A DNA stretch of 36,363 nt from an uncultured bacterium (GCA_903866605.1 CAIPOF010000071.1:1-36363), one strand, 5' to 3'; positions 7,805-24,100 are shown, numbered from the stretch's first letter. The notes: generated from the letters alone by a model not told the origin. Translations and numbers: made by a program.

Positions 7805-7881
7805 GGGCCAGTAACTCAGCTGGTTAGAGTGTCTGCCTCTTAAGCAGAATGTCGTGGGTTCAAGTCCCACCTGGCCCTCCA
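7805..7881 (+). tRNA. tRNA-Lys(CTT), integration target
   Basis: 77 nt with encoded CCA. Acceptor GGGCCAG/CTGGCCC, D arm ACTC/GAGT, anticodon stem TCTGC/GCAGA with loop CTCTTAA (anticodon CTT), T arm GTGGG/CCCAC with loop TTCAAGT, discriminator T. Its 3' end supplies the repeated attachment core, and the serine recombinase gene overlaps its last 22 bases on the other strand. The 21 bases 7861-7881 recur exactly at 24279-24299, so the original 3' end was displaced 16 kb downstream and the gene rebuilt by the incoming element. Confidence 0.95.
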
Positions 7882-9566
7882 AAAGTGGATTCATATTCCA
7901 ACCCAATTCGAAACAGTCCGTTTATCTCTGGTAGCGGGCTGTTTTTTGGTGTTTCAAAATTTATTTCAGTGTAAGTTGGCGTGGAATTGAATAGAACTGC
8001 GAAAAAGGCGGCTTTCCGGAGTGGATTACTGAGCTCAAGTAGTATATCTGAGAGGTGTTTCAAAAGATATCTGGCGTATTCCAATACGAGGCTAATATTC
8101 ACTGTATTTTCGCCATTATTGGCTAACTGATCGTTTAGTTTTTTCATTTGTTTTTCTGCGCTCACGATATCTTCCTCCATGTATTTAATTGCCGTTTCAT
8201 TAGTTATGACCTTCATGCGATCTACAGTGACCCTAATTTGAGCCTCAAGAGCCTGTCGTTGTTCCACGAGTTTTTGGCTATCTTGTATTGTTTGTTCTTG
8301 CTGCGCACGCCAGGACTGCTCAATCATTTCTAAAAGCTTATCAATATGTTCTGGTGCGATCTCAATACTCTTAACGAAGCGCTCAATAGTCGCATCAAAC
8401 TCTGCTTGTGGCATACGGAAATAATGACCGTCACGACTACAGTGATAAGCAGGATAATATTTGCCGAGTTTGCCGCGTGCCGCACTCCCACTTAACGGTT
8501 TGCGGCAGTATGGGCAACCAATAACTTTCTTGTATGGAAACTTTGGATTCATCATTTGCTTCACAAGTTGCCACTCTTGCGGTTGTTTGTGACGTATCGT
8601 CACTTCGTTGTTGTTAGCTATTTCGATAACCAATTTGCCATGATTAGCTCGGTTGAATAGCTCCGTTGATACGAGTCCTTCAAACTGGGCTTTGACTGGC
8701 TTATCGTTTGTCCATTTACCCTTAATGATGCCTGCGTAGATTAAGTTGTGGGCGATTCTATCAATCATTTTGACGTCAATAAGTCGGCCACCGACAATAC
8801 GTTTAATTTTTGTGCGGTCGTATTTATCACGCACATAGGTAGTACGCGTTTTGAAGCCTAAACGATTCACTTCATCTGCGATTTCTTGTCCACTATAAAT
8901 ACCTTGAGTACGCATCTCAAAAATGCGCCTCACGAATACTGCTTCTTTAGGATGTGGTTTTAAAACGACACGTTTACCGTGGTTTGTATCAAGGGTTTCA
9001 CTTGTAAAGCCGTAGGGCGGTTGACGCATCCAATAGCCTAGTTGGGTGTAGCGGATTTCAGCGCCAATCATACGGGTCATAATGTCGCGCAGTTCATCTT
9101 TGGCGTGTTCAGCCTCTAGTATCTCGCTTTTAAACGAGGGGCTGTAATCGCTCCAATAGTAACTAAAGCCGGTGTGTTCAAGTGTATTGACCCTACGGCC
9201 GTCAATGATTCCAAAGGTATCAAGCAGACTAACGCCAAGTCCATCAAGTTGCTCTTTTAGTTTAATGTAGGCAACTGAACCGCCGCGAGTGAAGCGATCG
9301 ATGGCTTTAATCAATACAACTTCTATGCTCGGGTTGGCTCTGCAATGTTCGATGATCTCTTGCATCGGTTGCTCAACATGAGAGGCTGATTCAACCAAAA
9401 CGATAGTTTTAACAATCACGACGTTGTTATTGCGAGCAAGATTTTCGCCACGTTGGCGTTGCTCTTCTGGCGAATCACCGTCACGTTTCTGCTTACCAGA
9501 CGATACACGAACGGCCAGCAGGCCGACGCGCTGTTTAGTTGTGCTCGGTAACATCATCCACCCCAA
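7860..9566 (-). CDS. Large serine recombinase (site-specific integrase)
   Basis: 568 residues. The resolvase domain (about 13-165) has the catalytic serine in VRVSSGKQ (Ser22) and the DRFTRGG arginine segment. A recombinase domain (about 190-300) is followed by a zinc ribbon (CPYC near 350, HCSRDGHYF near 385) and a long coiled coil (about 410-480), the standard order for phage-type serine integrases. The last residues GGPGGT and stop are encoded by the tRNA-Lys 3' end. In frame across core B the reading continues GGPAYTFLKH for 46 residues to a stop at 21441, so the excised circle would encode about 611 residues. The first codons overlap the end of the small upstream gene by 32 bp; ATGs at 9557 and 9554 are alternative starts. 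Confidence 0.95.
   Translation of the reverse strand: MGWMMLPSTTKQRVGLLAVRVSSGKQKRDGDSPEEQRQRGENLARNNNVVIVKTIVLVESASHVEQPMQEIIEHCRANPSIEVVLIKAIDRFTRGGSVAYIKLKEQLDGLGVSLLDTFGIIDGRRVNTLEHTGFSYYWSDYSPSFKSEILEAEHAKDELRDIMTRMIGAEIRYTQLGYWMRQPPYGFTSETLDTNHGKRVVLKPHPKEAVFVRRIFEMRTQGIYSGQEIADEVNRLGFKTRTTYVRDKYDRTKIKRIVGGRLIDVKMIDRIAHNLIYAGIIKGKWTNDKPVKAQFEGLVSTELFNRANHGKLVIEIANNNEVTIRHKQPQEWQLVKQMMNPKFPYKKVIGCPYCRKPLSGSAARGKLGKYYPAYHCSRDGHYFRMPQAEFDATIERFVKSIEIAPEHIDKLLEMIEQSWRAQQEQTIQDSQKLVEQRQALEAQIRVTVDRMKVITNETAIKYMEEDIVSAEKQMKKLNDQLANNGENTVNISLVLEYARYLLKHLSDILLELSNPLRKAAFFAVLFNSTPTYTEINFETPKNSPLPEINGLFRIGLEYESTFGGPGGT
7873..7883 (+). repeat. Attachment core A (tRNA side)
   Basis: ggccctccaaa, spanning the last bases of tRNA-Lys including CCA. 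First of six identical cores in the window. Its left arm is tRNA sequence and its right arm is recombinase-gene sequence. Confidence 0.85.
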
Positions 9567-11610: not shown

Positions 11611-11653
11611 GAGTTAGGTTACTAGGGAGAGCCTAACTCGGCATACTTTTTCG
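11611..11653 (+). terminator. Hairpin after hicA
   Basis: GAGTTAGG/CCTAACTC (11611-11618 with 11632-11639), then a short T-run at 11647-11651. A plausible but not ideal terminator. Confidence 0.5.
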
Positions 11654-11692
11654 GTAGCGATGGTTTAGGGCTAATACACGTAAGTTTTTTTA

Positions 11693-11721
11693 TTGCCTCC
11701 GCATAACACTAATGTTATACT
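11693..11721 (+). promoter_or_regulatory. Promoter of the prepilin adhesin
   Basis: TTGCCT, 17-bp spacer, TATACT. An ATAACA/TGTTAT inverted repeat lies in the spacer (11703-11718) and could be an operator. A 15-codon leader frame from 11752 overlaps the prepilin start. Confidence 0.55.
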
Positions 11722-11773
11722 AATTCTAACTAAGGATGATTTATAATAATTATGAGTACTAAAACAATAAATT

Positions 11774-12940
11774 ATGAAAAAGCAACTCTCTCTCTCTAAT
11801 AAGTTAAAAAATCCTATTTCACTGAAGTTTAGTAGGACAAGTCGTAGGACTGACCCTAACAAACTCGGTTTTACGATCGTCGAACTTTTAGTTGTTATTG
11901 TTGTCATCGGTATACTAGCTGCCATAACTATAGTCTCCTTTACTGGCATCTCCCAAAAAGCCACAGTAGCCTCAATTCAATCAGATCTATCTAACGCTAA
12001 AAAACAACTACAATTGTATTATACCGAATACGGTTATTATCCAGCCGCTCCACTAAGTAATAATTGCCCAGCTGCACCATCAATTGTTGACAATAGATAT
12101 TGCCTCAAGACAAGTCCTGGCAATACCTTTACCTCCTATACATCTGACGGTACAACCTTTAGTCTGGAAGCAACTAATACCAATGGTATGGTCTATAACG
12201 TAACTGACAATACTGGACCAACTGCTGGTGCAATAATCACCGGTTCGCCATACATCCAAACCATCACTGCAGCTAACTGCCCATCAACTCGTACCCAAGT
12301 TCAGGATGCCCGTGATGGTCACACCTACTGGGTTCAAAAACTAGCTGACGGTAAATGCTGGATGCTGACTAACCTTGGTTACGCTGGTGGTGGCACTAAT
12401 ACCTACAGTGACACAAAAACTCTAACTAACGCTCCTGGGTCAACCTACACAGCAGCGGGCTATTATACGCCTACAGGTTCCAATATCACCACCGAACCAA
12501 ACGCTCCTAGCACTTCAACTGACGGCACTGGTCAATACGGCTATCTATACAACTGGTGTGCCGCTACAGGCGGTGATCTAGCTAGCTCTGGCTGCTCAAG
12601 TACCATAACCACTCCACTACCAGTTACTACAGCATCAATCTGTCCCTCTGGTTGGCGTTTGCCAACCAGCAATGGCGGTGAATTCACCGCGCTCAACACA
12701 GCCATTAATAGCGGTTTAACCAGCACCGACGCCGGCTTAATCGGCGCTTCTTGGCTCGCGCAGCGAGGTGGCTACTGGGATTTTGGGTTTTACGATCAGG
12801 GTAGCTACGGCTACTACTGGTCGTCTACCCAGTACTCAGCCACTGTCGCCTACTACCTTAGATTCGGCAGCACTTACGTTAACCCGGTCAATCTCAGCAG
12901 TAAGAACGGCGGTTTTGCGGTGCGGTGTGTAGCGGTTTAG
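11774..12940 (+). CDS. Prepilin fused to a FISUMP / C-type-lectin-like domain
   Basis: 388 residues. A long basic leader (about 32 aa) ends in GFTIVELLVVIVVIGILAA, a canonical prepilin site and pilin helix, followed by a pilin neck (to about 110). From about residue 175 comes a Fibrobacter-paralogous (FISUMP) domain: QDARDGHTYWVQKLADGKCW, ICPSGWRLPTSNGGEF, then YYWSSTQYSATVAYYLRF and a closing GFAVRCV. This is the same lectin-like fold and ending seen in many variable proteins of diversity-generating retroelements. The gene is probably a cargo pilus-tip adhesin for attaching to a host cell. It is followed by a large hairpin and by a MutS-I/Avd-like gene. No template repeat or reverse transcriptase is visible in the window. 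Confidence 0.8.
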   Translation: MKKQLSLSNKLKNPISLKFSRTSRRTDPNKLGFTIVELLVVIVVIGILAAITIVSFTGISQKATVASIQSDLSNAKKQLQLYYTEYGYYPAAPLSNNCPAAPSIVDNRYCLKTSPGNTFTSYTSDGTTFSLEATNTNGMVYNVTDNTGPTAGAIITGSPYIQTITAANCPSTRTQVQDARDGHTYWVQKLADGKCWMLTNLGYAGGGTNTYSDTKTLTNAPGSTYTAAGYYTPTGSNITTEPNAPSTSTDGTGQYGYLYNWCAATGGDLASSGCSSTITTPLPVTTASICPSGWRLPTSNGGEFTALNTAINSGLTSTDAGLIGASWLAQRGGYWDFGFYDQGSYGYYWSSTQYSATVAYYLRFGSTYVNPVNLSSKNGGFAVRCVAV

Positions 12941-12975
12941 CCTTACCCCTAGATTTGAATGAATAAGAATTTGAA

Positions 12976-13035
12976 AGCAGTCTAATCAGGAAGCTACCCG
13001 TCCTTTAGGGCGAGTAGCTGACAGATTAGACTGCT
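12976..13035. repeat. 60-nt extended imperfect palindrome
   Basis: A perfect 12-bp outer stem AGCAGTCTAATC/GATTAGACTGCT, an inner stem AGCTAC/GTAGCT and an apical CGTCC/GGGCG with loop TTTA, separated by small bulges. It lacks a T-run, so it is not a standard terminator. Similarly placed hairpins follow the variable region in some diversity-generating retroelements. Confidence 0.7.
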
Positions 13036-13062
13036 AAGTAACGAACAAATAAGGCGAAATTT

Positions 13063-13782
13063 ATGGATGAAGACAAAAGTTACGAAAAACTAAAAACAGT
13101 GCCTGACCACATTCGGTATGAATTTACCAATCAAGATTCAATTGCGCTAAGAAAAAACGGGGTATACTATAAAGCCGTCGGTAATTCGGCGATTATGTTA
13201 AAAATTCTGGGCGCTAAAACCAAGATTCGTTCAAATTTCAACACTTTTTACGAACAAGAAGTATTAGAAATGAGTCTGCACGGCAGCAAGTTTGACGAAA
13301 TTAAAAATTATTTGCAAACACTTAGTTCAAAAACCCTGCGCGATGACAATTTGTTCTATATCATCCGGTTAAAATCACCGATTAACGCTAAAAGAATTAA
13401 ACGTGCCCGTGCTAGCGGCGATTTGCGTACAGAAGTTACCGAAGACATTTTGTTGAAACGACGGCACAGTACGCCTTTATCAAAAGAAGTTAGGGGGATT
13501 TTTAAAGAAGTGGGTTTACTGGTTAGCGCGATGAAAAGCCAAGATGGTCAGGTGTTAGGCCTTGCGCTATTGAACGAGGTAATCGATTTGCAGCGGGCGG
13601 TACGCGTTTTGACGCGAACCGAAACGCCGTCAGGCAAATTAAAATTGGCGGTTGATGATGCTGCCGACGATTTGTTAGGTACGTTGCTGTTAGTATCTAA
13701 TTTTGTCGAGCAAGCGACCAGGTTGGCAAGGATTGGCAGAAGCATCAACACGATCACAGTTACCCCAATAGCGAAAGACTGA
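13063..13782 (+). CDS. MutS-I-like domain fused to an Avd-like four-helix bundle (putative)
   Basis: 239 residues. The N-terminal 110 residues resemble MutS domain I: DSIALRKNGVYYKAVGNSA parallels the DAILLFRVGDFYEAFGEDA pattern, and LHGSKFDEIKNYLQTL parallels the MutS helix after GVPxH. A lysine/arginine-rich linker follows. Residues 145-225 form a helical bundle with the Avd/four-helix-bundle pattern (GQVLGLALLNEVIDLQRA, AADDLLGTLLLV, RLARIGRSI). MutS-like and Avd proteins are both known accessory factors of diversity-generating retroelements, and the preceding gene is a suitable target, but no reverse transcriptase is present. The C-terminal codons overlap a minus-strand gene remnant. The domain assignments are by eye. 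Confidence 0.5.
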   Translation: MDEDKSYEKLKTVPDHIRYEFTNQDSIALRKNGVYYKAVGNSAIMLKILGAKTKIRSNFNTFYEQEVLEMSLHGSKFDEIKNYLQTLSSKTLRDDNLFYIIRLKSPINAKRIKRARASGDLRTEVTEDILLKRRHSTPLSKEVRGIFKEVGLLVSAMKSQDGQVLGLALLNEVIDLQRAVRVLTRTETPSGKLKLAVDDAADDLLGTLLLVSNFVEQATRLARIGRSINTITVTPIAKD

Positions 13783-14015
13783 ACATCAAGTGAAAAATCA
13801 AGATAGTGATAATTTGATACCAGTTTGCCGAGGATGATACCAGTAGTAATTATTGTAACTAGCAAAACTGCCGAACCATTATCGCTGTCTCGACTATCAT
13901 TTTTTGATTTCGTATATACAAACAAAAAGTCGCAAATTGCCCAGATGAAGATTAAAATTAATAAAATATTATCTGACACCTTACTAACATAGGCTTTTGT
14001 CGCCTTTGTGGTCAA
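13730..14015 (-). pseudogene. N-terminal remnant of a membrane protein (isoprenylcysteine methyltransferase-like)
   Basis: From an ATG at 14015 about 95 residues carry three hydrophobic segments (NILLILIFIWAICDFLFVY, SAVLLVTIITTGIILGKL, FAIGVTVIVLMLLPILANL) and the SRDSDNGS motif typical of N-termini in the isoprenylcysteine carboxyl methyltransferase-like family. Beyond about 13730 the frame stays open to 13548, but the sequence is only the antisense of the MutS-I/Avd-like gene, so the catalytic C-terminal half is missing. It marks a deletion or insertion junction inside the element. Confidence 0.45.
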
Positions 14016-14035
14016 GCTTATATGGGGTCGTTAAA

Positions 14036-14064
14036 TTGATGAACAGTCATTTTTATGTTAAAAT
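14036..14064 (+). promoter_or_regulatory. Promoter of the radical SAM/GH3 operon
   Basis: TTGATG, 17-bp spacer, TAAAAT. A small hairpin (CCTTTTAAAGG, 14072-14082) lies in the roughly 65-nt leader, and AGAGAGG precedes the first ATG. Confidence 0.5.
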
Positions 14065-14133
14065 TACCAAGACCTTTTAAAGGTGTAATGCCCTGTTAAC
14101 CGGTAGCTCTTTGACAAGAGAGAGGTTTTCGAA

Positions 14134-15468
14134 ATGCAAAAGAAAATGGTACTTTTGATTTCGCCCGACGCGCACATGCACAAGTTCGTTATCGGCTCGT
14201 TCGTCAAGTCGTCAAGAGAAGCACCGCTTACTCTGACAACACTGGCCGCGATGGTCCCTGAGGACAGGTTCGACGTACGGATTGTGGATGGCAGTATCGA
14301 TACAATTCCGCTCGACTATCCGGCCGACTTGGTCGGAATCAGCACGCTCACGGGCACTTGCCTGCAGGCTTACGAGCTTGCGGAACACTATAGAAACAGG
14401 GGAATCCCTGTGGTGCTCGGTGGTGTACACGCTACGATCATGCCGGAGGAGGCGAAGCAGCACGCTGACAGCGTCCTCATCGGTATGGCTGAAGAATCGT
14501 GGCCTCAGCTTCTCCAGGATTTTCTGGACGGAGACCTGAAGCCTGTTTACGAGGCAATCGAACCTGAAGGAGACACACTCCTGAACGTTCCAACGCCTCG
14601 TCTCGATCTGATGCGCCGTAGCGGCTACATGCTGCCGGATACAATTCAAGCTACAAGAGGCTGCAAGCACGACTGCGATTTCTGCTCGGTGCCGACGGTT
14701 TGGTCGAAGTACTACAAAAGGCCGATCGCCGACGTCATCAGAGATATCAAGAATGCCCCAGGCACTTACTTGGCCTTCAACGACGTCAGCATCATCGAGG
14801 ATGTCGACTACGCCAAGGAACTCTTCACGGCTATGATCCCACTGAAGGTGAAGTGGGGAGGTCTTTCGACCACCCTCATCACGAAGGATCAGGAGCTGAT
14901 GGAGCTCGCCGCCAAGAGCGGCTGCATCTACATGCTTCTGGGGTTCGAGTCGGCAAGCCAGATGACACTCAAGAGTATCGCCAAGGGCTTCAACAAGAAG
15001 GACGACTACCACAAGGTCATGCAATGCATGCATGACTACGGCATCTCTGTACAGGGGTGCTTTGTTTTCGGCTTTGACGAAGACGATCAATCTGCCTTCC
15101 AGCAGACGGTCGATTGGGTCAACGAGCTCAAGGTCGACATCCCTAGGTACTCGATCTATACCCCTTATCCCTGTACGAGACTGTTCAAGAGGCTCGAGGG
15201 TGAGGGGAGGATCCTTACCTACAATTGGGGTAACTACGACACGATGCACGTTGTCTACCAGCCCACCCAGTTGACGCCACATGAGCTATTCGATGGTTTC
15301 AAGTGGGCGTACAAGCAAACGTTCTCTGCTGGTAGCATCGGCCGACGCATATTCTTCCAGAAGCTGGGAGCGCGCAGCGTCGTCAACCTGGCTGGGAACG
15401 TGACCTATCGGATATTCGTTCATCGCCTTTACAAAGATGAGCGTTTTGTACTTCCGATGATGCCGTAA
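14134..15468 (+). CDS. Cobalamin-binding radical SAM enzyme (class B type), copy 1
   Basis: 444 residues. The N-terminal Rossmann-like B12-binding domain (about 1-150; PADLVGISTLTGT, IPVVLGGVHATIMPEEA) precedes a radical SAM TIM barrel with the [4Fe-4S] motif CKHDCDFC near residue 177 (CX3CX2C) and the GFES segment near 270. A C-terminal tail has CFVFGFDEDD and YTPYPCTRLF. The family contains methyltransferases and carbon-skeleton-modifying enzymes of natural-product pathways; the substrate cannot be told. First gene of a tight five-gene operon, 12 bp before a paralogue. Base composition and codon use are markedly more GC-rich than in flanking genes, pointing to transfer. Confidence 0.88.
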   Translation: MQKKMVLLISPDAHMHKFVIGSFVKSSREAPLTLTTLAAMVPEDRFDVRIVDGSIDTIPLDYPADLVGISTLTGTCLQAYELAEHYRNRGIPVVLGGVHATIMPEEAKQHADSVLIGMAEESWPQLLQDFLDGDLKPVYEAIEPEGDTLLNVPTPRLDLMRRSGYMLPDTIQATRGCKHDCDFCSVPTVWSKYYKRPIADVIRDIKNAPGTYLAFNDVSIIEDVDYAKELFTAMIPLKVKWGGLSTTLITKDQELMELAAKSGCIYMLLGFESASQMTLKSIAKGFNKKDDYHKVMQCMHDYGISVQGCFVFGFDEDDQSAFQQTVDWVNELKVDIPRYSIYTPYPCTRLFKRLEGEGRILTYNWGNYDTMHVVYQPTQLTPHELFDGFKWAYKQTFSAGSIGRRIFFQKLGARSVVNLAGNVTYRIFVHRLYKDERFVLPMMP

Positions 15469-15483
15469 CGCAAGGAGACTTTG

Positions 15484-16809
15484 ATGCACATCACTCTGGT
15501 TTTGCCGTCCGTTGGGCGGAAAGGCAAGAAGTACATCAAGACCTGGACGATGGAACCGCTAGCGATAGCAGTTCTGGCCAGTCTGACTCCAGCCGATGTC
15601 AAGATTACTTTCTTTGACGATCGGCTCGAGGATGTGGATTACGACGCTCCGACCGACCTGGTTGGTATAAGTGTCGAGTCCTACACCTCGAAAAGAGCCT
15701 ACGAGATCGCGGCTGAGTATCACAAGCGTGGCGTACCCGTCGTAATGGGGGGTTACCACGCTACACTGGTACCCGAAGAAGTACAGAACCATGCAGAGGC
15801 TACGGTCATCGGCGACGCCGAGCCAGTTTGGGCTCAGGTGGTCGATGATGCAAAGAATGGCCGGCTCAAGAAGGTCTATCGGGCGGAGCGTCAGACGCTT
15901 TCGTCCGAGATGACAATTCCTGACAGAAGTATCTATGCCGATAAGAAGTATCTGGGCATAACACTTCTGGAGACCGGTCGTGGATGCAAGTTCCACTGCG
16001 AGTTCTGCTCTGTCACCGCGTTCTACGAAGGCGACTATCGTCGCAAGTCTGTAGACCTGATCGTCGAAGAGATTCGGGCGACCGGGAGCAAGCAGGTCTT
16101 CTTCGTCGATGACAACATCATCGGCGACGTCGAGTCCGCGAAGGAGCTTTTCACTGCACTGATCCCGCTGAACATCAAGTGGGTTACACAGTGCAGTCTG
16201 AATGCCGTCAAGGACCGAGAGCTTCTTGACCTCATGGTCAAAAGTGGTTGTGTCGGCATTCTGGTCGGTTTCGAGTCGATCGCAAAAGATAACCTCGTGC
16301 AAATGCACAAGGGGCAAAACAACGGCGCCAAGGACTATTCCGGCGCGCTTGCTCAGCTTCGTCAAAGAGGCGTGGTGATCTATGCGACGTTCGTATTCGG
16401 CTACGACAACGATGACGCCGGCCTCATCCAGAGAACGGTGGATTTTTGTCGGGAAGAAAAGATCTTCATCGCCGCCTTCAACCACTTGGTTCCCTTTCCC
16501 GGGACACCTTTGTATGGACGGCTGAAGAGCGAAGACAAGCTACTCATCGAGAAGTGGTGGCTTGACCCTGACTACCAGTACGGCGACATCAGCTTCTATC
16601 CGAAGTCGGTGTCACCCGATGAACTGACACGGCTATGCCTAGTAGCTAGGAACGAGTTCTACGGAGTTCGCTCGATTATCGAGAGAAGTCTCGATTTCCA
16701 CGCGAACTCCAAGAGTCCGAAATGGCTCTTCTTGTTCCTTCTGGCTAACTTCATGCTCCGCAAGGAAGTCATGGAGAAGAGGAGCTTGATGCTGGGTAGT
16801 GAGTCCTGA
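15484..16809 (+). CDS. Cobalamin-binding radical SAM enzyme (class B type), copy 2
   Basis: 441 residues from the ATG at 15484, which has AAGGAG 8 nt upstream; a TTG codon precedes it. It is a paralogue of the previous gene with the same order: a B12-binding domain (TDLVGISVESYTSKRAYEIA, VPVVMGGYHATLVPEEV), then CKFHCEFC near residue 170, GFESIAKDNL, and FVFGYDNDDAG. It differs throughout, so the two enzymes probably act on successive or related steps rather than being a recent duplication. The C-terminus (SLDFHANSKSPKWLFLFLLANFML) is hydrophobic and could touch the membrane. The next gene follows after 12 bp. Confidence 0.88.
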   Translation: MHITLVLPSVGRKGKKYIKTWTMEPLAIAVLASLTPADVKITFFDDRLEDVDYDAPTDLVGISVESYTSKRAYEIAAEYHKRGVPVVMGGYHATLVPEEVQNHAEATVIGDAEPVWAQVVDDAKNGRLKKVYRAERQTLSSEMTIPDRSIYADKKYLGITLLETGRGCKFHCEFCSVTAFYEGDYRRKSVDLIVEEIRATGSKQVFFVDDNIIGDVESAKELFTALIPLNIKWVTQCSLNAVKDRELLDLMVKSGCVGILVGFESIAKDNLVQMHKGQNNGAKDYSGALAQLRQRGVVIYATFVFGYDNDDAGLIQRTVDFCREEKIFIAAFNHLVPFPGTPLYGRLKSEDKLLIEKWWLDPDYQYGDISFYPKSVSPDELTRLCLVARNEFYGVRSIIERSLDFHANSKSPKWLFLFLLANFMLRKEVMEKRSLMLGSES

Positions 16810-16821
16810 AGGGGGGGTAAG

Positions 16822-17922
16822 ATGGGACGCTATGAAATCGGCCTGGCAACACCCGAGGAAGATGAACAGCTTATGGCCATTCAGGCCATGCCGATGGAGG
16901 GATCAATCAAGATTTCCTACCAGAGGCAGCCGAGCATATTCACTTCCATCGGTTTGCTGGGGCATCACAGCGACATCATGGTCATGCGAGACACCAAGAA
17001 GGACCAGATCGCTGGTTTTGGCGTACGGTCCATCAAAAGGGCCTACGTCAACGGAGAGCTGTCTGATGTAGGCTATCTAAACGGCCTCCGTTCACGCGAA
17101 GAGTACCGTGGTTCGGTGTTATTGGCTCGTGCGTATAGGTATCTTCGTGAGCTGCACGACCAGTCACCAATGCCGATGTACTTTACGACCATTATCGAGG
17201 GTAACGAAGTCGCACTGTCCGCCTTAACAGGCGGCAAGGCAGGGCTTCCTCGCTACCAAGATATTGGAAGATATACAACCTATGCGCTGAAGGCGTCTCG
17301 TGGTCACAGTCGTGATCATGGGATCACCATCGTCAAGGGCTGTAGTGATCGGCTCCCTGAAATCGTAGAGTTCTTAAATCAAGAGAGCTCACGCTTTCAG
17401 TTCGGCGCCCATTACGACACCCTGGAACTACAAGAAAGCGCGCAATATCGCGGCCTATCGATGGACGACGTTTACGTCGCCTACGACAATGGCTCGTGCG
17501 TAGGAGTTTTGGCAGTGTGGGACCAGAACTTCTGCAAGCAGAACGTTGTCAGTGGGTATGCCGACAGAACCAATAAGTACCGCCGGGTTTACAACTTGGT
17601 GGCGCGAATTGGTCAAAACCCTCAACTTCCACCGGTGGGCGCAAAGATCTCCCTCAGCTATATTGCCATGCTGGCGGTTCAGGATGATGATAAAGTCGTC
17701 TTCGAATCACTGCTTGACAAAGTCCGGGGGTCTAACCGCAATCGGGGGAATGACTATGTGCTAGTCGGAATGCATGAGGATAATCCTCTGTCGTCCGTGC
17801 TTCAAAAACTCCATCCGATTACCTACCATAGCCGTTTTTTCACGGTCTTTTGGGAGGATGGTCGGCAGTTTTACGAAGCGCTTGACGGGAGGACTCCGCA
17901 TGTCGAAGTCTCAAGCATGTAA
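16822..17922 (+). CDS. GNAT-like acyltransferase, double-domain (putative)
   Basis: 366 residues with a strong GGGGGGG-type ribosome binding site. The N-terminal half has the GNAT look: an EIGLATPEEDEQLMAIQ opening, a central strand pair GFGVRSIKRAYVNG, and LRSREEYRGSVLLARAYRYLRE, where the R-x-x-Y-R-G-S-x-L-L segment sits in place of the acetyl-CoA loop. The C-terminal half repeats a divergent GNAT-like pattern (DVYVAYDNGSCVGVLAVWD). It would transfer an acyl group from CoA or a carrier to an amine. The substrate is unknown, but its place beside a GH3-type amide synthetase suggests building a small amide-containing product. Confidence 0.6.
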   Translation: MGRYEIGLATPEEDEQLMAIQAMPMEGSIKISYQRQPSIFTSIGLLGHHSDIMVMRDTKKDQIAGFGVRSIKRAYVNGELSDVGYLNGLRSREEYRGSVLLARAYRYLRELHDQSPMPMYFTTIIEGNEVALSALTGGKAGLPRYQDIGRYTTYALKASRGHSRDHGITIVKGCSDRLPEIVEFLNQESSRFQFGAHYDTLELQESAQYRGLSMDDVYVAYDNGSCVGVLAVWDQNFCKQNVVSGYADRTNKYRRVYNLVARIGQNPQLPPVGAKISLSYIAMLAVQDDDKVVFESLLDKVRGSNRNRGNDYVLVGMHEDNPLSSVLQKLHPITYHSRFFTVFWEDGRQFYEALDGRTPHVEVSSM

Positions 17923-17934
17923 GCGAGGTGGAAG

Positions 17935-18651
17935 GTGAACAAGCTAACGGGGCGTATCATCCCTATTTCGGAACTCTCTCAAGGGGATACCGTCACGATG
18001 TGGCGGTTGATGCAACGGTTCTACAAGCATGTCAGTTGGGCCATCTTCACGAAAGATTTGGCAGAGAAGGATTCTGTCATTTTGCTTCGTGAAGTGGCCA
18101 CGGGCGACATCAAGGGCTTCTCGACGACGATGATTATCCAGACTGAGGTCGATGGCGTACAAATCGCCGCCGTCTTCTCTGGGGACACTATCATCGACAA
18201 GGAATTCTGGGGTGAGCTGGTTTTGGCCAAGCTCATGATCCAGTACCAACTCGAAGTTCTCGAGAGGTTCCAAGACCGAAACGTCTACTGGTTCCTGATT
18301 TCAAAGGGATACAAGACGTATCGGTATCTGCCGCTGTACTTCTGCAAGTTCTACCCGAGTTACTGCGAAGACACCCCTGCTTTCGAGCAGAGTGTCATCA
18401 ATGAGCTCTCTAGGCTGAAGTTCGGTGACTGCTACGACGAATCGAGAGGTTTGATCGTTTTCGATGAACCCTCGGAATGTCTGAGGCCCGACGTTGCCCA
18501 GATTGATGACAAGTCGATGAAGAACCCTCATGTCCAGTACTTCGCCAAGAAGAACCCTGGACATCGTGAAGGTGACGAATTAGCGTGTCTGGCTCGAATC
18601 GCGCCGGACAACTTCAATCGGGCGTTCCTAAGGACGGTGAAGCAAGAATGA
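17935..18651 (+). CDS. Hypothetical protein, possible GNAT-fold partner in the operon
   Basis: 238 residues from a GTG at 17935 with GAGGTGGA just upstream. The order of a substrate-side opening (SQGDTVTMWRLMQRFYKHVSW), strands with SVILLREVATGDIKGFSTT, a FSGDTIIDKEFWG turn and VYWFLISKGYKTYRYLPLYF is compatible with a divergent GNAT fold, but no clear acetyl-CoA motif is seen. It ends in a 4-bp ATGA overlap with the GH3 gene, so it is translationally coupled to it. Function unknown; conservation of the pair could be tested in other genomes. Confidence 0.55.
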   Translation: MNKLTGRIIPISELSQGDTVTMWRLMQRFYKHVSWAIFTKDLAEKDSVILLREVATGDIKGFSTTMIIQTEVDGVQIAAVFSGDTIIDKEFWGELVLAKLMIQYQLEVLERFQDRNVYWFLISKGYKTYRYLPLYFCKFYPSYCEDTPAFEQSVINELSRLKFGDCYDESRGLIVFDEPSECLRPDVAQIDDKSMKNPHVQYFAKKNPGHREGDELACLARIAPDNFNRAFLRTVKQE

Positions 18652-20354
18652 AACGAGCGGGAATTCTCCTAGCTAACGTTATCTGGATTGCTTCCTGCTT
18701 TTCGGGCTGGTTGCTTTTCAGACTTGCCAGTCTTTTTCCTGGAAAGATTCAGGAAAACGTTCTGCGCAAGATCTTAGGGCTGAATCAGGAAACTGAGTTC
18801 GGCCGAAACCACAATTTCGACAGGATCAAGAGCATTTCGGATTTTCGTCGATTAGTTCCGGTCGGGGACTACGGTTCTCACAAGAACTACATCACGGAGA
18901 TCATGGGCGGTAAAGAGAACGTGTTGGTCGGCGAAGATATTCAGGTGTTGATGCCAACCAGCGGTTCTACTGGGGGTGTTAAGTACATTCCCTACACCGC
19001 TTCGCTCCAACGTCAGTTCCGTGCTGGAATCTCTCCGTGGCTGTTTTCGCTATACCTTCGGAATCCAAGGCTCTTTCTGGGCACTGCCTACTGGTCAATC
19101 ACACCGGCGGGAAGTAAACAGGAGGAAACACCTTCTGGAATCCAAGTCGGTTACCAAAGCGACGGAGAGTATCTGGGCAAGACTGCCCAGCTGGTTCTAA
19201 ACGCCGTTATGAACGCTCCAAGCGAAATCGGACAAATCTCGGAAATGGATAACGTGTTCTACGCGACGCTACTATTCCTACTCCGAGACAAAGACCTTGC
19301 ACTGATTTCGGTCTGGAGCCCGACGTTCCTTACGGTGCTTCTTGATCGATTTACAGAGTGGGGAGGGTCAATTGTAGCCGACATCGAGTCTGGCACAGTT
19401 AACCTCCCCATCAAAGGAGATCAAGCAGTTGCCGAGAAACTGAAGGCAAAGACTTTCCCTGATCCAAAACGGGCAAGTGAAATTCGGACTAGGACATCAG
19501 TCTCTGGCCGAAAAATGGAGTGGACATTACTATGGCCCAAACTAAGAGTAATAAGCTGTTGGGCCGACGGAAGCTCCGAGAACTATTTGCCCGGGTTGCA
19601 ATCACGTTTTCCAACGGTCTCAATACAACCCAAAGGCCTGTTGTCAACAGAGGGGATAGTTTCTTTCCCTCTCTGCGATGAGCCTGGTGCGGTACCGTCT
19701 ATCAGATCCCATTTCTACGAGTTCTTAGAAGTCGGAACCAGCGCGGTTCCAAAACTTCTGATTGAGCTCGAGGTCGATGGGATATATGAGGTGGTACTGA
19801 CCACTAGTGGGGGACTGTATCGTTACCGAACAAGCGATCTCGTTGAGGTCGTAGATATTCGGCGCGGTATTCCCAGACTAAGGTTTGTTGGACGAATCGG
19901 CAACGTCTCTGACCTGTTCGGTGAGAAACTTCACGAAGAACAGATTATTGAGGCGATGTCGGCTATAACTGTTCGGCAAAGGTCAAGACTGTCCTTCTGG
20001 ATGGTTGCGCCTGATAAAGAGTGCTCAGGGGAAACCCACTACACCCTCTTTATCAAGCCGGCAGATCCTGACGGTACAGACGGATGCCGTGAGATTGCTG
20101 ACGAACTCGAACGCAGTCTTCTCGTTAATCCCCACTACAAGTATGCGAGAGAGCTTGGCCAGCTCTCGAGCCTACGTGCTGTTCTAGTCGAAGAAGACTA
20201 TCTTCGACGCTACACCGAAGGGTGTGTCCAACTGGGCCAGAGACTCGGGGACGTCAAGTTGACGTTTCTGAGGAAAGAATTCGGCTGGACGGAAAGGTTC
20301 CAGGAACCAATCACAACTGAGTCCGCAGTGTCCTCACCCCGACGCTGCACATAG
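18648..20354 (+). CDS. GH3-type acyl-acid amido synthetase (adenylate-forming)
   Basis: 568 residues from the ATG overlapping the previous stop. An N-terminal hydrophobic helix (ILLANVIWIASCFSGWLLF) may anchor it. The ATP-binding signature MPTSGSTGGVKYIPYT (near residue 105) is the GH3 version of the adenylation P-loop. SCWADGSSENYLPGL, LLSTEGIVSFPL, and GGLYRYRTSDLVEVV with GRIGNVSDLFGEKLHE are the further GH3 landmarks. GH3 enzymes adenylate a carboxylic acid and couple it to an amine or amino acid. In bacteria they are rare and largely uncharacterised. Last gene of the operon, directly followed by a strong terminator. It makes amide or ester formation the likely final step of this pathway. 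Confidence 0.85.
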   Translation: MKRAGILLANVIWIASCFSGWLLFRLASLFPGKIQENVLRKILGLNQETEFGRNHNFDRIKSISDFRRLVPVGDYGSHKNYITEIMGGKENVLVGEDIQVLMPTSGSTGGVKYIPYTASLQRQFRAGISPWLFSLYLRNPRLFLGTAYWSITPAGSKQEETPSGIQVGYQSDGEYLGKTAQLVLNAVMNAPSEIGQISEMDNVFYATLLFLLRDKDLALISVWSPTFLTVLLDRFTEWGGSIVADIESGTVNLPIKGDQAVAEKLKAKTFPDPKRASEIRTRTSVSGRKMEWTLLWPKLRVISCWADGSSENYLPGLQSRFPTVSIQPKGLLSTEGIVSFPLCDEPGAVPSIRSHFYEFLEVGTSAVPKLLIELEVDGIYEVVLTTSGGLYRYRTSDLVEVVDIRRGIPRLRFVGRIGNVSDLFGEKLHEEQIIEAMSAITVRQRSRLSFWMVAPDKECSGETHYTLFIKPADPDGTDGCREIADELERSLLVNPHYKYARELGQLSSLRAVLVEEDYLRRYTEGCVQLGQRLGDVKLTFLRKEFGWTERFQEPITTESAVSSPRRCT

Positions 20355-20392
20355 CCTCCGACGCTGCAAAGCGTCGGAGGCTCTACTTTTTT
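20353..20392 (+). terminator. Terminator of the radical SAM/GH3 operon
   Basis: A perfect 12-bp stem AGCCTCCGACGC/GCGTCGGAGGCT (20353-20364 with 20371-20382), loop TGCAAA, then CTACTTTTTT. The operon is a self-contained transcription unit. Confidence 0.9.
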
Positions 20393-20563
20393 GTGGATTA
20401 ACCTAGTGTTCTTGCCGTTGGATTATCGGCTCAGGGTATGACCTAAGCAAGGCTATAACTTCGTCAACCACAGCGTACTAAATCGACATTATAAAAAATC
20501 ACTCTTTGAACTCGGTTCTAATATTTTAGACACAAGTCTCTACTGTAAACTTTTCAAAAGCGG

Positions 20564-20569
20564 TATAAT
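20564..20569 (+). promoter_or_regulatory. -10 box of the XRE gene (leaderless)
   Basis: TATAAT, nine bases before the ATG at 20579 and with no ribosome binding site between. The rest of the gap from 20393 shows nothing recognisable. Confidence 0.6.
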
Positions 20570-20578
20570 ATATTCAAT

Positions 20579-20791
20579 ATGTCATCCAAGCTAAGCAGTT
20601 ACATTGGTCGCCAGCTCCAGCTAGCGCGACAAAAGAAAGGGCTCACACAAGCTGAGGTTGCAGGGCATGCAGGCACAACTGTCAATCACTACGCCAAGAT
20701 TGAGCGTGGCGAAGTAGTGCCATCACTTAAAACGTTAGAGAAGATAGTCAAAGCTCTCGGTGTGAAGTCGTCGGACGTTTTGTCTTTTTAG
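20579..20791 (+). CDS. XRE-family helix-turn-helix regulator
   Basis: 70 residues, almost all one Cro/C1-type HTH domain: YIGRQLQLARQKKGLTQAEV, then VNHYAKIERGEVVPSLKTLEKIVKALGV. It is a DNA-binding repressor or activator of the short single-domain class. It lies between the GH3 operon and the PLD/75-aa genes, tail to tail with the latter (4-bp overlap). It is a candidate regulator of the element, for instance at the ATATGAATAGT repeats before the recombinase; that link is inference. Leaderless promoter. Confidence 0.9.
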   Translation: MSSKLSSYIGRQLQLARQKKGLTQAEVAGHAGTTVNHYAKIERGEVVPSLKTLEKIVKALGVKSSDVLSF

Positions 20792-21015
20792 TCTTTTGGT
20801 GACTGGTTGTATTGATCGATAAACTTTTCAAAATCCAGCTTGGATGAGTCAGCCATAGTCTTGGCGACACTTTGCATTCGCTTCAGTAATCCAATCGCAT
20901 ATTCGCGATTAGCATTGTTTGGATCTTTGTATTTCAAATAATTGATAGTCTTCTCAATAACCCCTTCATTTTCTGCGAGGTTGCGGTCATTGAAATCAGT
21001 ATTTTCGTCTAGCAT
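20788..21015 (-). CDS. Hypothetical 75-aa protein
   Basis: A small acidic, helical protein (ENEGVIEKTINYLKYKDPNN, REYAIGLLKRMQSVAKTMAD) with no recognised family. Its start overlaps the end of the PLD-like gene by 20 bp, so they are co-translated. In the excised circle it would be the last gene of the recombinase operon. Confidence 0.6.
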   Translation of the reverse strand: MLDENTDFNDRNLAENEGVIEKTINYLKYKDPNNANREYAIGLLKRMQSVAKTMADSSKLDFEKFIDQYNQSPKD

Positions 21016-21448
21016 ATTTCTTCACGCCAATAAAATTAATCAGTATCTTGGCTTCTACGGATGATACCACTCTTCTCATTATCTCACAACTGTTACTGAA
21101 TGATAGGAAGTTGAGGCTACCCTCATAAAACACTTCTCGGTCAAGGATGACCAGTTTACGGTGATGGTTAGTGGTATAAAGAACCGTGATGCCTAAATCT
21201 TGCATCACCTCAATAGCATTTAGTGCTTGATGGTAGTAATCGCCATCGTGTTCTATAGGATTGCGTGTATTCACGATGATAGTAACGTTACGTTTCCGTA
21301 AGCTAGCTAAAATAGGCAACAGGGCGTTCGTGCGTCTCGTAGTGATAAATGGACTTTCTATGATTAACTCTTGCTTGCAGTACTTCAAATCGCGTTCAAA
21401 AGCATCATAAAACGTATTCTGGTCGTAGAGTTGGGAGGATTTAAACAT
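20996..21448 (-). CDS. PLD-like (HKD) domain protein
   Basis: 150 residues from the ATG at 21448, preceded by GGAGGAG; the frame is open seven codons further. A single HKD motif is present: NHHRKLVILD (HxKxxxxD), followed by EVFYEGSLNFLSFSNSCEIM, like the small dimeric PLD nucleases and PLD-like DNA-binding domains. The N-terminal part has ELIIESPFITTRRTNALLPIL and VTIIVNTRN, the usual phospholipase D-like strand and helix. Its start overlaps the stop of the displaced recombinase C-terminal codons by 8 bp, so in the circular element it would be translated right after the recombinase. A role in DNA processing is inferred. Confidence 0.8.
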   Translation of the reverse strand: MFKSSQLYDQNTFYDAFERDLKYCKQELIIESPFITTRRTNALLPILASLRKRNVTIIVNTRNPIEHDGDYYHQALNAIEVMQDLGITVLYTTNHHRKLVILDREVFYEGSLNFLSFSNSCEIMRRVVSSVEAKILINFIGVKKYARRKY

Positions 21449-21593
21449 CTTTCTCCTCCAAATCAGCAAGGTAAACTTCGCCGTTTCGGTATTCTACGCC
21501 TAGTTCAACCAGTTTGGTGTATAGGGATATTAAATCATCAATCAACTTATGTGTAGTTTGGTGTTTCAGAAAAGTATACGCTGGCCCTCCAAA
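21441..21593 (-). pseudogene. Displaced C-terminal coding segment of the serine recombinase
   Basis: In the frame that reads GGP across core B, the minus strand continues AYTFLKHQTTHKLIDDLISL and on to DLEEKDV before a stop at 21441: 46 residues after the shared proline. The recombinase at core A reads FGGP in exactly the same frame. Joining the two element ends therefore gives an uninterrupted recombinase of about 611 residues. In the integrated state this piece has no start of its own; the frame is open to 21749, but that part is antisense of the next cassette. The stop overlaps the PLD-like start. Confidence 0.8.
21562..21593 (+). repeat. Attachment site B (right end of the 13.7-kb element)
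   Basis: TGTTTCA, 14 nt, then ctggccctccaaa. The core is at 21583-21593. The left arm belongs to the large element and the right arm to the first small cassette. Confidence 0.8.
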
Positions 21594-21605
21594 CCGGTTA
21601 TGCTT

Positions 21606-21636
21606 AAAACAGAGATATAATATCTCTGTTTTTTTG
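21606..21636 (+). terminator. Terminator at the head of cassette B-C
   Basis: AAAACAGAGATA/TATCTCTGTTTT (12 bp, loop TAA), then T-run. Before the large element arrived this would have been the terminator of tRNA-Lys. Confidence 0.85.
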
Positions 21637-21649
21637 TTACAATCTATGT

Positions 21650-22048
21650 ATGGACATACTGAAACAAGTATCGACTCTAAGATTACCATCAGGACAATAT
21701 GCAATTTTTGGTAGCGGGCCAATGGCGTTACATGGAATAAGAGAATCACGTGATATTGATTTGATAGTTACAACTAATCTATATAATGAGTTACATCGTT
21801 CAGGATGGCAAGAAGAAGGAAGCGGGAGCAAAAAACATTTAGTAAGAGATAATATTGAAATATTTAGTAGTTGGGATTTTGATAACTATCATCCAATTCC
21901 CAAACAATTGATTAATGAAGCAGAAATAATAGATGGCGTAGCCGTTGTTCAATTGTCTGAAGTTATGAAATGGAAAAATGCATTTGGTAGAGAAAAAGAT
22001 TTAGCGGATATTAAACTAATTCAGGATTATTTACTGACCGAAAAATAG
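21650..22048 (+). CDS. Nucleotidyltransferase-like protein (AbiEii/DUF-type substrate-binding fold)
   Basis: 132 residues. LPSGQYAIFGSGPMALHGIRESRDIDLIVT is the small nucleotidyltransferase signature in two parts: a GSGPMALHG loop, then RxxxDIDLIV with two acidic metal ligands. The rest has FSSWDF and an ending with EVMKWKNAFGREKDLADIKLI, like the K-x3-RxKDxxDI element of AbiEii/nucleotidyltransferase-like toxins and antitoxins. It could modify tRNA or protein, or act as an orphan half of a toxin-antitoxin pair; the partner is absent. It is the only gene in its cassette, leaderless: TACAAT at 21638-21643, six nt before the ATG. Confidence 0.75.
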   Translation: MDILKQVSTLRLPSGQYAIFGSGPMALHGIRESRDIDLIVTTNLYNELHRSGWQEEGSGSKKHLVRDNIEIFSSWDFDNYHPIPKQLINEAEIIDGVAVVQLSEVMKWKNAFGREKDLADIKLIQDYLLTEK

Positions 22049-22078
22049 TTCCAATAGACTCTACTACGGCCCTCCAAA
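22047..22078 (+). repeat. Attachment site C
   Basis: AGTTCCAATAG, with AGTTCCA 14 nt before the core (22068-22078), then TTGGTTATGCTTAAAAC, nearly identical to the right arm of site B. Confidence 0.8.
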
Positions 22079-22090
22079 TTGGTTATGCTT

Positions 22091-22119
22091 AAAACAGAGA
22101 TGATTTGTCTCTGTTTTTT
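22091..22119 (+). terminator. Terminator at the head of cassette C-D
   Basis: AAAACAGAGA/TCTCTGTTTT, loop TGATTTG, then T-run. A diverged relative of the terminator at 21606. Confidence 0.85.
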
Positions 22120-22177
22120 GTTAGCAATTTGAGCTCAATTTGTGGTATTGTGTAGATACATATAATAAGGAGCAAAC

Positions 22178-22480
22178 ATGGGTACTGATGGCGAAAATGG
22201 AGTATATGATTGGCAAAAGGAAGGCGATATTGTTGGCGAACCTCAAAAGTTGCCAGAGTTAGAAGAATCTGTTGAAACTTTCGAATCAAAAATAGATGCG
22301 ATGCTTACCAATTGCGTTAATAATCCTGACTATAGTGATTGGCCAAGCGACTATACTGAAGCAGTAAACACTTGGGGCTTGGAATGTTCGGAAGACGATG
22401 TCTATAGTTCTCTTAAAAGACTAGCGGCACAAGGTGTAATTGAATGGAAAGTTGATCATTACGAACCTAAAACAAACTAA
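22178..22480 (+). CDS. Hypothetical 100-aa acidic protein, single-gene cassette
   Basis: No family is recognised. The N-terminal half is acidic (GEPQKLPELEESVETFESKI); the C-terminal half is WPSDYTEAVNTWGLECSEDD, then YSSLKRLAAQGVIEWKVDHY, which looks like a short winged-helix-type module (helix, turn, GVIEWK strand). TATAAT at 22161-22166 is followed immediately by AAGGAG, so the mRNA leader would be only about 5 nt. It is the sole gene between cores C and D. Confidence 0.65.
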   Translation: MGTDGENGVYDWQKEGDIVGEPQKLPELEESVETFESKIDAMLTNCVNNPDYSDWPSDYTEAVNTWGLECSEDDVYSSLKRLAAQGVIEWKVDHYEPKTN

Positions 22481-22519
22481 AGCTAATCAATTTAACTCAA
22501 TCGAAAAGTTGCGGACTAT

Positions 22520-22551
22520 AGTTCCAATAGCCAACAATATGGCCCTCCAAA
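22520..22551 (+). repeat. Attachment site D
   Basis: AGTTCCAATAG, with AGTTCCA 14 nt before core 22541-22551. The left arm nearly matches site C (ATAGTTCCAATAG in both). Confidence 0.8.
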
Positions 22552-22564
22552 CTAGTTTTGATTA

Positions 22565-22590
22565 AAAAAGACCTTTTCTAAGGCCTTTTT
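22565..22590 (+). terminator. Terminator at the head of cassette D-E
   Basis: AAAGACCTT/AAGGCCTTT with one A-C mismatch, loop TTCT, then TTTTTG. Confidence 0.75.
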
Positions 22591-22604
22591 GTTATTATAG
22601 GATA

Positions 22605-23081
22605 GTGCAAAATATAATTAAATACAGGTCATATCAAACCTCTAATTTCCAAGACTTATTAGAATTTTTGTCTACTGTAGAAAAAGATTTTTATCCACCG
22701 CTATCAAAACGAACTACTTTAAGAAATTATTTACTAAGTGATCTAGTAGAAAATAGCTATACTTATTTAGCTTTATGCAATGATTCAATAATTGGGTTTA
22801 TTAATCTTCAAATTAATGAACCAGCAAAAAATGATACTAATATAAATACTGTTGCCATTCACCCAAAATTTAGAAAAATGGGGATTGCTACACAATTAAT
22901 GGGGAATGTAATTAATTTTGCCAAGACTAATGGCTTTGGATGTATAAAAACAAGAACCTGGTCCATAAATAATTCTGGACTTGGATTATATAAGAAGTTT
23001 GGATTCGAAGTAGATTACATAGTAAAAAATGATAGAGAAAATAATGTTGACAGCATTTATTTAGTCAATAAATTCACTTGA
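22605..23081 (+). CDS. GNAT-family N-acetyltransferase
   Basis: 158 residues from a GTG. The acetyl-CoA-binding motif A is clear: NTVAIHPKFRKMGIATQLM (V-x-P-x-x-R-x-x-G-I-G/A). Motif B follows (NNSGLGLYKKFGFEVDYI, with the usual N-x-x-x-x-x-x-Y-x-x-x-G-F). The FINLQI strand precedes it. The acceptor cannot be predicted; small-molecule or ribosomal-protein acetylation and resistance functions are all possible. TATTAT at 22593-22598 ends six nt before the GTG, a leaderless start. It shares the cassette with a transporter, which may export the acetylated or related compound. Confidence 0.88.
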   Translation: MQNIIKYRSYQTSNFQDLLEFLSTVEKDFYPPLSKRTTLRNYLLSDLVENSYTYLALCNDSIIGFINLQINEPAKNDTNINTVAIHPKFRKMGIATQLMGNVINFAKTNGFGCIKTRTWSINNSGLGLYKKFGFEVDYIVKNDRENNVDSIYLVNKFT

Positions 23082-23160
23082 TATCTAGTTGAGATTAGCT
23101 TGATGATTGCTCTCCATCTTATTTTTGCTAATATATATGGTTGAGTTATAATAAAAATTG

Positions 23161-24009
23161 ATGACTTGGTTCTATTACACTTTACTTGCTGTTTTTTCAT
23201 ACTCTTTATACTACCTTTTCTCAAGAGTTTTTTTGAAATCTAAAGACAGCAACGTAGTCACTTATGCGATTTTATTTAATTTTGTATGTGCAACAATTTT
23301 AACGGTTTTAGCTGTTAGCAGGGGATTCGAATCATTAGACATTAAGAAATATGCCCCTAATCTTATATTAATGGCTATATTGTACGCTGCTGCTCAAATA
23401 TTAATTTTCAAAGCTTCCAAATTGATTGAAGCTTCAGAATTGATAATTCTATCCGCGACTCGTGTATTGTGGACAATTGCTGGGGCTATGTTACTGCTGG
23501 GGGAAAGTTTTAACCTACAAAAAGCAGTTGGAGTATTTTTAATAATTTTTGCAGTTATATTTGTATCCTACAAGAAAAAACGCATGAAGCTAAATTGTGG
23601 CCATTGGTATGCAATACTGGCTGGATTTTGTTTAGGTATAGGTTTTGTTAATGATGCATATATACTTCAACATTCTGATGCAATGTCATACGGAGCAATA
23701 GTTTTTATATTGCCTTTGGTTTTAACGTTAATTGTCTATTCTTCGTCTTTGAATAAATTAAAAAAAGAAGTTACTGTAAAGTTGCTTTTCAAAAACTTGT
23801 TGCTGGGTGTTGTCTATTCAATCGGTGTTATTTCTTCATATCTTGCATATCAGAACGGGGGCAATGCGTCACAAATTGTTCCTATAGGACAATCAGTAGT
23901 AATCATAACCGTTATTTTAGCTGCGATTTTTTTGGGTGAGAGAAACAGTTTGCTTAAAAAGTTTGTAGCCGCTGGGTTTGTTACTATAGGTGTCTTTCTA
24001 ATTAAATAA
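23161..24009 (+). CDS. EamA/DMT-superfamily transporter
   Basis: 282 residues from the ATG at 23161 (a TTG precedes it). Ten membrane helices in two EamA repeats: the first from WFYYTLLAVFSYSLYYLF to the helix ending GVFLIIFAVIFVSY, the second from WYAILAGFCLGIGF to GFVTIGVFLI. LGESFNLQKAVGV and LGERNSLLKKFVAAG are the characteristic E-x5-7-G junctions after helices 4 and 9. Typical substrates are amino acids, nucleotides or other metabolites, usually outward. TATAAT at 23147-23152 lies 8 nt before the ATG, so it has its own leaderless transcript. Confidence 0.9.
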   Translation: MTWFYYTLLAVFSYSLYYLFSRVFLKSKDSNVVTYAILFNFVCATILTVLAVSRGFESLDIKKYAPNLILMAILYAAAQILIFKASKLIEASELIILSATRVLWTIAGAMLLLGESFNLQKAVGVFLIIFAVIFVSYKKKRMKLNCGHWYAILAGFCLGIGFVNDAYILQHSDAMSYGAIVFILPLVLTLIVYSSSLNKLKKEVTVKLLFKNLLLGVVYSIGVISSYLAYQNGGNASQIVPIGQSVVIITVILAAIFLGERNSLLKKFVAAGFVTIGVFLIK

Positions 24010-24068
24010 CACAACCGATACTGTCTACATAGTTATTTAATATATTGCCTTCGATTATCATGAGACAT

Positions 24069-24100
24069 AGTTGCGATTAATTCTAAGATGGCCCTCCAAA
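24069..24100 (+). repeat. Attachment site E
   Basis: AGTTGCG, 14 nt, core 24090-24100. The right arm is part of an 18-bp perfect hairpin. Confidence 0.75.

Follow-up and report, generated by a model that had tools for sequence, protein, structure and literature searches.

A five-gene set of B12-radical SAM, GNAT and GH3 proteins carried by a predicted integrative element at a tRNA-Lys gene

The window, the whole stretch of 36,363 nucleotides that was analysed, contains an operon of five genes encoding two predicted B12-dependent radical SAM (rSAM) proteins, two proteins of GNAT fold and a GH3-family acyl-acid amido synthetase. In our judgement, and with somewhat better than even confidence, the operon is best explained as a horizontally acquired and intact copy of a widespread undescribed pathway, brought into tRNA-Lys by a serine-recombinase integrative element and leading to an N-acyl-amide-type product. 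The earlier note on this DNA had called the operon uncharacterised, in agreement with the open-licence papers searched, in which no description of the gene set and no matching pathway was found; as far as found in those papers, the five-gene set thus appears to be a widespread but undescribed biosynthetic pathway. The operon and its flanking features comprise:

14036..14064, plus strand: possible promoter, TTGATG, 17 bp, extended -10 TG-TAAAAT ending at 14064
14134..15468, plus strand: rSAM1 ('A'), B12-binding and radical SAM protein of 444 aa, motif CKHDCDFC
15484..16809, plus strand: rSAM2 ('B'), B12-binding and radical SAM protein of 441 aa counted from the ATG at 15484, motif CKFHCEFC
16822..17922, plus strand: tandem-GNAT acyltransferase-fold protein ('N'), 366 aa
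17935..18651, plus strand: single-GNAT protein ('P', the small partner), 238 aa, GTG start, extra C-terminal helices
18648..20354, plus strand: GH3-family acyl-acid amido synthetase ('G'), 568 aa, three GH3 domains
20353..20392, plus strand: intrinsic terminator, stem-loop at 20353-20382 with a 13-bp stem (9 GC) and a 4-nt loop, followed by a T tract, CTACTTTTTT
20579..20791, plus strand: Cro/C1-type HTH regulator, directly after the operon

By domain content, rSAM1 and rSAM2 are B12-dependent radical SAM proteins, each with both domains and a CX3CX2C motif, at residue 177 in rSAM1 and residue 168 in rSAM2, the B12-binding domain of the latter being marginal. The Pfam scores of rSAM1 are 48.3 bits for PF02310 and 46.7 bits for PF04055, whereas rSAM2 scores 53.9 bits for PF04055 and 28.9 bits for PF02310, against a cut-off of 32.1 bits; a second profile search of this B12-binding domain, run on the host genome, gave 32.3 versus 32.1 bits. 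The AlphaFold model of the tandem GNAT (pLDDT 95.6) finds its top fold matches among the N-myristoyltransferases (TM up to 0.65) and the tandem GNAT MAB_4324 (TM 0.61), and that of P (pLDDT 95.2) matches GNAT folds with TM of about 0.4 on P's own length. Both models display the fold of the GNAT superfamily, and sequence matches in the relatives are weak, with 26 of the 53 members of the tandem-GNAT family matching Acetyltransf_1 at E<=0.1; both proteins are strongly diverged and acyl-CoA binding by either is not assured. The operon GH3 belongs to the GH3 amido synthetase family PF03321, its amide-forming activity being putative, and all three of its domains (PF03321, together with PF23571 and PF23572) exceed the cut-off of 23.6 bits, with scores of 184, 55.7 and 32.9 bits; among PDB sequences it matches the plant GH3.15 (E=4.6e-23). 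The earlier note had proposed two cobalamin-binding rSAM paralogues, a GNAT-like protein and a GH3-type amide synthetase, all of which are borne out, the GNAT-like protein as a tandem GNAT by both its fold matches and its relatives. The small coupled partner of that proposal does share an ATGA overlap between its stop and the GH3 start, but had gone unrecognised as a second GNAT, which its fold and its relatives now show it to be.

All five open reading frames are intact, and they retain 261 of the 271 conserved columns overall (58/60 highly conserved family columns in rSAM1, 88/93 in rSAM2, 13/14 in the tandem GNAT, 26/26 in P and 76/78 in the GH3), so that the window copy is not visibly decaying. 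As the note had it, the operon is tight, ends in a terminator and is richer in GC than its surroundings (0.524 versus 0.386 in the remainder of the window). The intergenic gaps are 15, 12, 12 and -4 bp, the terminator is the strongest of the region, and GC3 reaches 0.54-0.70 in the operon genes compared with 0.28-0.42 in four adjoining genes. On the other hand, the claim that it has its own promoter is not supported, promoter-like matches showing no excess (5 found versus 5.5 expected from shuffled sequence). A search of the window for leader RNAs disclosed no cobalamin riboswitch, nor any Rfam match other than two tRNAs.

The operon lies within DNA inserted at a tRNA-Lys gene, delimited by the following features:

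7805..7881, plus strand: tRNA-Lys(CTT), the integration site
7860..9566, minus strand: large serine recombinase adjoining the tRNA, with Resolvase and Recombinase domains (Pfam) and a match to PHROG 95 integrase of 131.6 bits
7872..7883, plus strand: left attachment core, 12 bp at the 3' end of the tRNA, TGGCCCTCCAAA
9880..10767, plus strand: HTH / weak Replic_Relax protein of the element, both Pfam matches under the cut-off
21582..21593, plus strand: second attachment core, the right end of a 13.7-kb unit with the recombinase and the operon
21594..24100, plus strand: three further small units, each ending in a core, at about 22068-22078 (an 11-mer), 22540 and 24089

The exact core occurs at 7872, 21582, 22540, 24089 and 24290, and these are the only five exact copies in the genome. 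In a relative (G382) the site is empty: a MurB homologue, a tRNA-Arg, a bestrophin-like gene and tRNA-Lys occur in the same order as in the window and are followed directly by the sequence that in the window lies after the core at 24089, which marks 7884-24100 as inserted DNA. The insertion is, as read from its recombinase, the direct repeats of the tRNA 3' end and the empty site of the relative, an integrative element, and its sequence reads as four tandem units, the operon being in the 13.7-kb unit closest to the tRNA, together with the recombinase. The small units contain a gene that is nucleotidyltransferase-like on our own reading, without a Pfam match, a gene of unknown type, and GNAT and EamA genes. 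The operon is absent from the 59 close relatives searched, which fits an insertion, and the notion of mobile cargo put forward in the note is therefore well supported by the recombinase-bearing unit, its tRNA-Lys cores and the empty site. A 23-bp repeat at 24279 was considered as the right end of the insertion and rejected, since the relative places that end at the core at 24089, the last 0.2 kb being ancestral. A phage origin was likewise rejected: viral contigs contain no relatives of the GH3 or the recombinase, and two 'phage' matches are Acinetobacter records with bacterial-type genes.

A sharp change in GC at each end of the operon could also arise if the assembly were chimeric and had fused a GC-rich block to the host contig; nevertheless, one edge of the operon falls in an intergenic region and the other at a terminator, the block lies whole within a unit that has matching attachment cores at its ends and occupies a proven integration site, and no near-identical source is known, the nearest relative being only 45% identical over four concatenated proteins, all of which makes such an artefact highly improbable.

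Several further observations concern the element and its site. A short hairpin-like stretch follows each of the cores at 21582, 22068 and 22540, giving the aspect of an integron-like cassette array beside a serine recombinase, and positions 11774-12940, in the mobile unit, encode a pilin-like protein in which an N-methylation motif and a Fibrobacter succinogenes major domain were recognised. In addition, a structured repeat of ~110 nt (predicted at -39 kcal/mol, with no Rfam match) is present at 7646-7764 and 24170-24285 of the window and in 20 of the 28 genomes of the genus, with up to 19 copies in one of them, adjacent to a wide variety of tRNA genes; an apparent T-arm/3' end of the adjoining tRNA terminates several of the copies. 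At 7598-7764, just upstream of the intact tRNA-Lys, a degenerate tRNA-Lys copy has its T loop broken by this repeat, and in the relative with the empty site a 185-bp unit, comprising a hairpin and the ~110-nt repeat, lies between two tRNA-Lys cores and is possibly a miniature tRNA-targeted element.

The conservation of the gene set was examined in 84,980 species genomes, scanned by GH3 peptide patterns for GH3 relatives only, the best 80 loci being analysed. Because the loci were picked by GH3 alone, the neighbours lie outside the selection, beyond likeness to the window GH3. All five genes are present at 62 of the 80 GH3-selected loci, so the gene-neighbourhood search called for in the note found its neighbours kept in most of them. 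P lies immediately upstream of GH3 at 74/80 loci, N is found at 71/80, at least one B12-rSAM of these two subfamilies at 72/80, and the exact order A-B-N-P-G on one strand at 39/80. As the 80 loci are the GH3s closest to the query, conservation is lower among bacterial GH3s at large; two distant GH3s from the phylum of the window (L010 and L011), found by weak similarity, lack the five-gene set. Over 65 five-gene loci the pairwise divergences correlate for all ten gene pairs (r 0.37-0.77, with 0/500 permutations as high), most strongly for P with GH3 (r 0.77) and N with P (r 0.76).

The tree of concatenated proteins comprises 19 named phyla with 24 label changes, and the nearest relative of the window copy in it is a Nitrospirota locus. 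The four Patescibacteria-type loci, namely (i) the window, (ii) a second locus of its phylum (G050), (iii) a Nealsonbacteria locus and (iv) a Parcubacteria locus, occupy four separate positions, and a single transfer into hosts of this type was rejected, their union in one clade having an AU p of about 4e-101. Judging by its genome size and by those of the other members of its phylum, we infer the host itself to be a Patescibacterium.

Besides the common set, the loci display variable neighbourhoods. At least three B12-rSAM paralogues occur at 34/80 loci, and a second neighbour set, formed by a fatty acid desaturase (FAdes), PAP2, SnoaL-like, Rieske and (alpha/beta-)hydrolase-like proteins, at up to 19/80, homologues of FAdes, PAP2, SnoaL or Rieske proteins lying near 16-19 of the 80. 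In myxobacteria the P-GH3 pair is accompanied by a Rieske protein, no rSAM being in the vicinity; on a Burkholderia replicon P, N and GH3 occur together with desaturases, a Rieske protein and a PF10118 (diiron-type) protein; Acinetobacter has a P-GH3-N triad without rSAMs nearby. A strict replacement of the rSAMs by oxygen-dependent enzymes was rejected, both kinds being present at many loci. Since desaturase, Rieske or extra B12-rSAM genes are found in only part of the relatives, the GH3 and the two GNATs look like the core, and the distribution suggests that the carbon tailoring, by rSAM or by desaturase/Rieske enzymes, is exchangeable.

The Citrobacter portucalensis plasmid NZ_CP134684.1 (L121, positions 51417-63512), of IncF type and from a gull, contains the full set with five B12-rSAMs, PAP2, SnoaL-like and desaturase genes. 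An Acinetobacter record filed as phage (L123, positions 7044-11926) has homologues of P, GH3 and the tandem GNAT amid HlyD, EmrB, TolC and SurE genes but lacks an rSAM in the vicinity, and P-GH3-N relatives of this type are also found in two A. baumannii plasmid-collection records.

The GH3, GNAT and rSAM steps of the pathway are all predicted, being read from the enzyme families. The note had proposed C-methylation or rearrangement of a carboxylic acid and then amide formation, a scheme that is likewise putative. On our reading, the GH3 enzyme would activate a carboxylic acid by adenylation, its substrate probably being a fatty acid, modified or not, which would then be coupled to an amine or amino acid. 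Both the tandem and the small GNAT may take part in this amide/acyl-transfer step, and the latter, translationally coupled to GH3, may either prepare the acceptor or acylate it. The rSAM pair would use B12-dependent chemistry to alter an unactivated carbon in the acid or in the acceptor, by C-methylation, desaturation or ring formation. As best we can infer from the genes, the outcome would be an amide-containing lipid or small molecule of the N-acyl amide or lipo-amino acid kind, which might often be exported.

Two rival accounts of the product have to be weighed. In the first, the GH3 would act like OlsH, the bacterial GH3 of ornithine-lipid synthesis, a GNAT would add a second acyl chain, the rSAMs would modify the chains, and the product would stay in the membrane as an ornithine-lipid-like aminolipid. 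The OlsH precedent speaks for it, as do the likeness in fold of the tandem GNAT to N-myristoyltransferases and, at part of the loci, neighbours of desaturase, PAP2 and alpha/beta-hydrolase-like type; nevertheless, the window GH3, at 75.7 bits, is far below the 620 bits required for OlsH, exporter genes adjoin some clusters, and the chains would need import into a host in which no ketoacyl synthase was found, and we regard this account as rather unlikely. In the second, a modified carboxylic acid amide would leave the cell through MFS or ABC transporters and act between cells, as a secondary metabolite or signal able to diffuse, giving the small host an interaction trait made from scavenged precursors. 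EmrB/HlyD/TolC genes adjoin the Acinetobacter triad, ABC transporter genes lie near several Bacillota clusters, the distribution is patchy with transfer between phyla, and a GH3 occurs within a Streptomyces PKS cluster, with no P partner seen there. The mobile unit of the window has no exporter, however, the MFS gene at 26858-28456 lying outside it, and ABC genes are common in general, so that this account, too, is held to be doubtful.

The host genome is an 814-kb draft, 95% complete. A genome profile search located its only two radical SAM domains and its only two B12-binding domains, all of them in the operon. SAM synthetase is present, but the draft disclosed no ketoacyl synthase and, in searches that covered B12 uptake by FecCD/BtuC-type permeases and Fe-S assembly by SufBD, neither of these two; when reference genomes were searched as controls, most or all of them had the families in question. 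To judge from these searches, the host seems to be without the means of producing or loading what the operon enzymes need, and the operon may work on scavenged precursors or may be a silent passenger. A silent passenger would be a recent acquisition, non-working in this host and kept merely by travelling with the element. The lack of SufBD, other radical SAM, BtuC-type permease and ketoacyl synthase in the draft, the absence of the operon from the close relatives searched and its retained foreign GC, which means that it may be recent and unexpressed, are consistent with such a passenger; the five intact frames with their conserved columns stand against it, and the independent gain of the set at the three other Patescibacteria-type loci argues for use. 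On this evidence we consider silence possible but not probable.

Beyond the window, a tentative generalisation, to which we give less than even credence, is that the set defines a new N-acyl amide/aminolipid class in at least 19 phyla, made by a core of GH3 and two GNATs with exchangeable rSAM or oxygen-dependent tailoring, and that small parasitic or symbiotic bacteria repeatedly acquire it via mobile elements and run it on the precursors and cofactors of others. The set is kept together in no fewer than 19 phyla, gut Bacillota, Planctomycetota and Verrucomicrobiota among them, with the triad lacking nearby rSAMs in Acinetobacter baumannii, and its compound most likely matters to many communities. 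Ornithine lipids would then no longer be the only physiological setting of bacterial GH3 enzymes, and the window copy poses the puzzle of why a genome without other radical SAMs or detected SufBD keeps two that need [4Fe-4S] and B12.

Compared with known B12-dependent radical SAM enzymes (BchE, HpnJ, PhpK, AprD4 and others), the operon rSAMs have the same B12-binding and radical SAM domains and CX3CX2C motif, but score under every listed NCBIfam equivalog cut-off (best 98 versus 481 bits) and, unlike BchE, HpnJ, PhpK and AprD4, form two constant subfamilies linked to GH3. The ladderane-associated rSAM (TIGR04072) was rejected, at 70.6 and 74.4 bits against a cut-off of 360, the text of the ladderane paper making no mention of GH3, and identities with ladderane, hopanoid, BchE, PhpK and OlsH proteins were all set aside as falling under the family cut-offs. 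Similarly, the tandem GNAT resembles N-myristoyltransferases and tandem GNATs (MAB_4324, Eis-like) in having two GNAT domains per chain, with TM of 0.6-0.65, but is about 10-13% identical to N-myristoyltransferases and MAB_4324; its assignment as an N-myristoyltransferase by sequence was rejected, there being no PDB sequence match up to E=1 and the similarity being one of fold.

The window GH3 shares by sequence the three-domain family of the plant GH3 synthetases (JAR1, GH3.12, GH3.15), although it is distant from them (phmmer 59-85 bits over about 400-500 residues) and is encoded in a bacterial operon. OlsH, as far as found the sole characterised bacterial GH3, produces N-acyl-ornithine from fatty acid, ornithine and ATP, and OlsH/OlsI constitute the ornithine-lipid pathway of Singulisphaera acidiphila (PMC12493201). 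The operon is like OlsH/OlsI in having a GH3-family enzyme in bacteria, and the reaction expected by analogy would be the ATP-dependent joining of a fatty acid to an amino acid through an amide bond; by its score against the OlsH family NF052613, however, the window GH3 belongs to a different subfamily, the OlsH paper (PMC12493201) mentions no rSAM enzyme, and no description of a partnership with two GNATs was found. As for the element, its architecture resembles that of tRNA-targeted integrative elements and integrons, in that a recombinase adjoins a tRNA whose 3' end recurs as direct repeats and several units have accumulated in tandem; it differs from an integron in its recombinase, which is of the large serine type and not an IntI tyrosine integrase.
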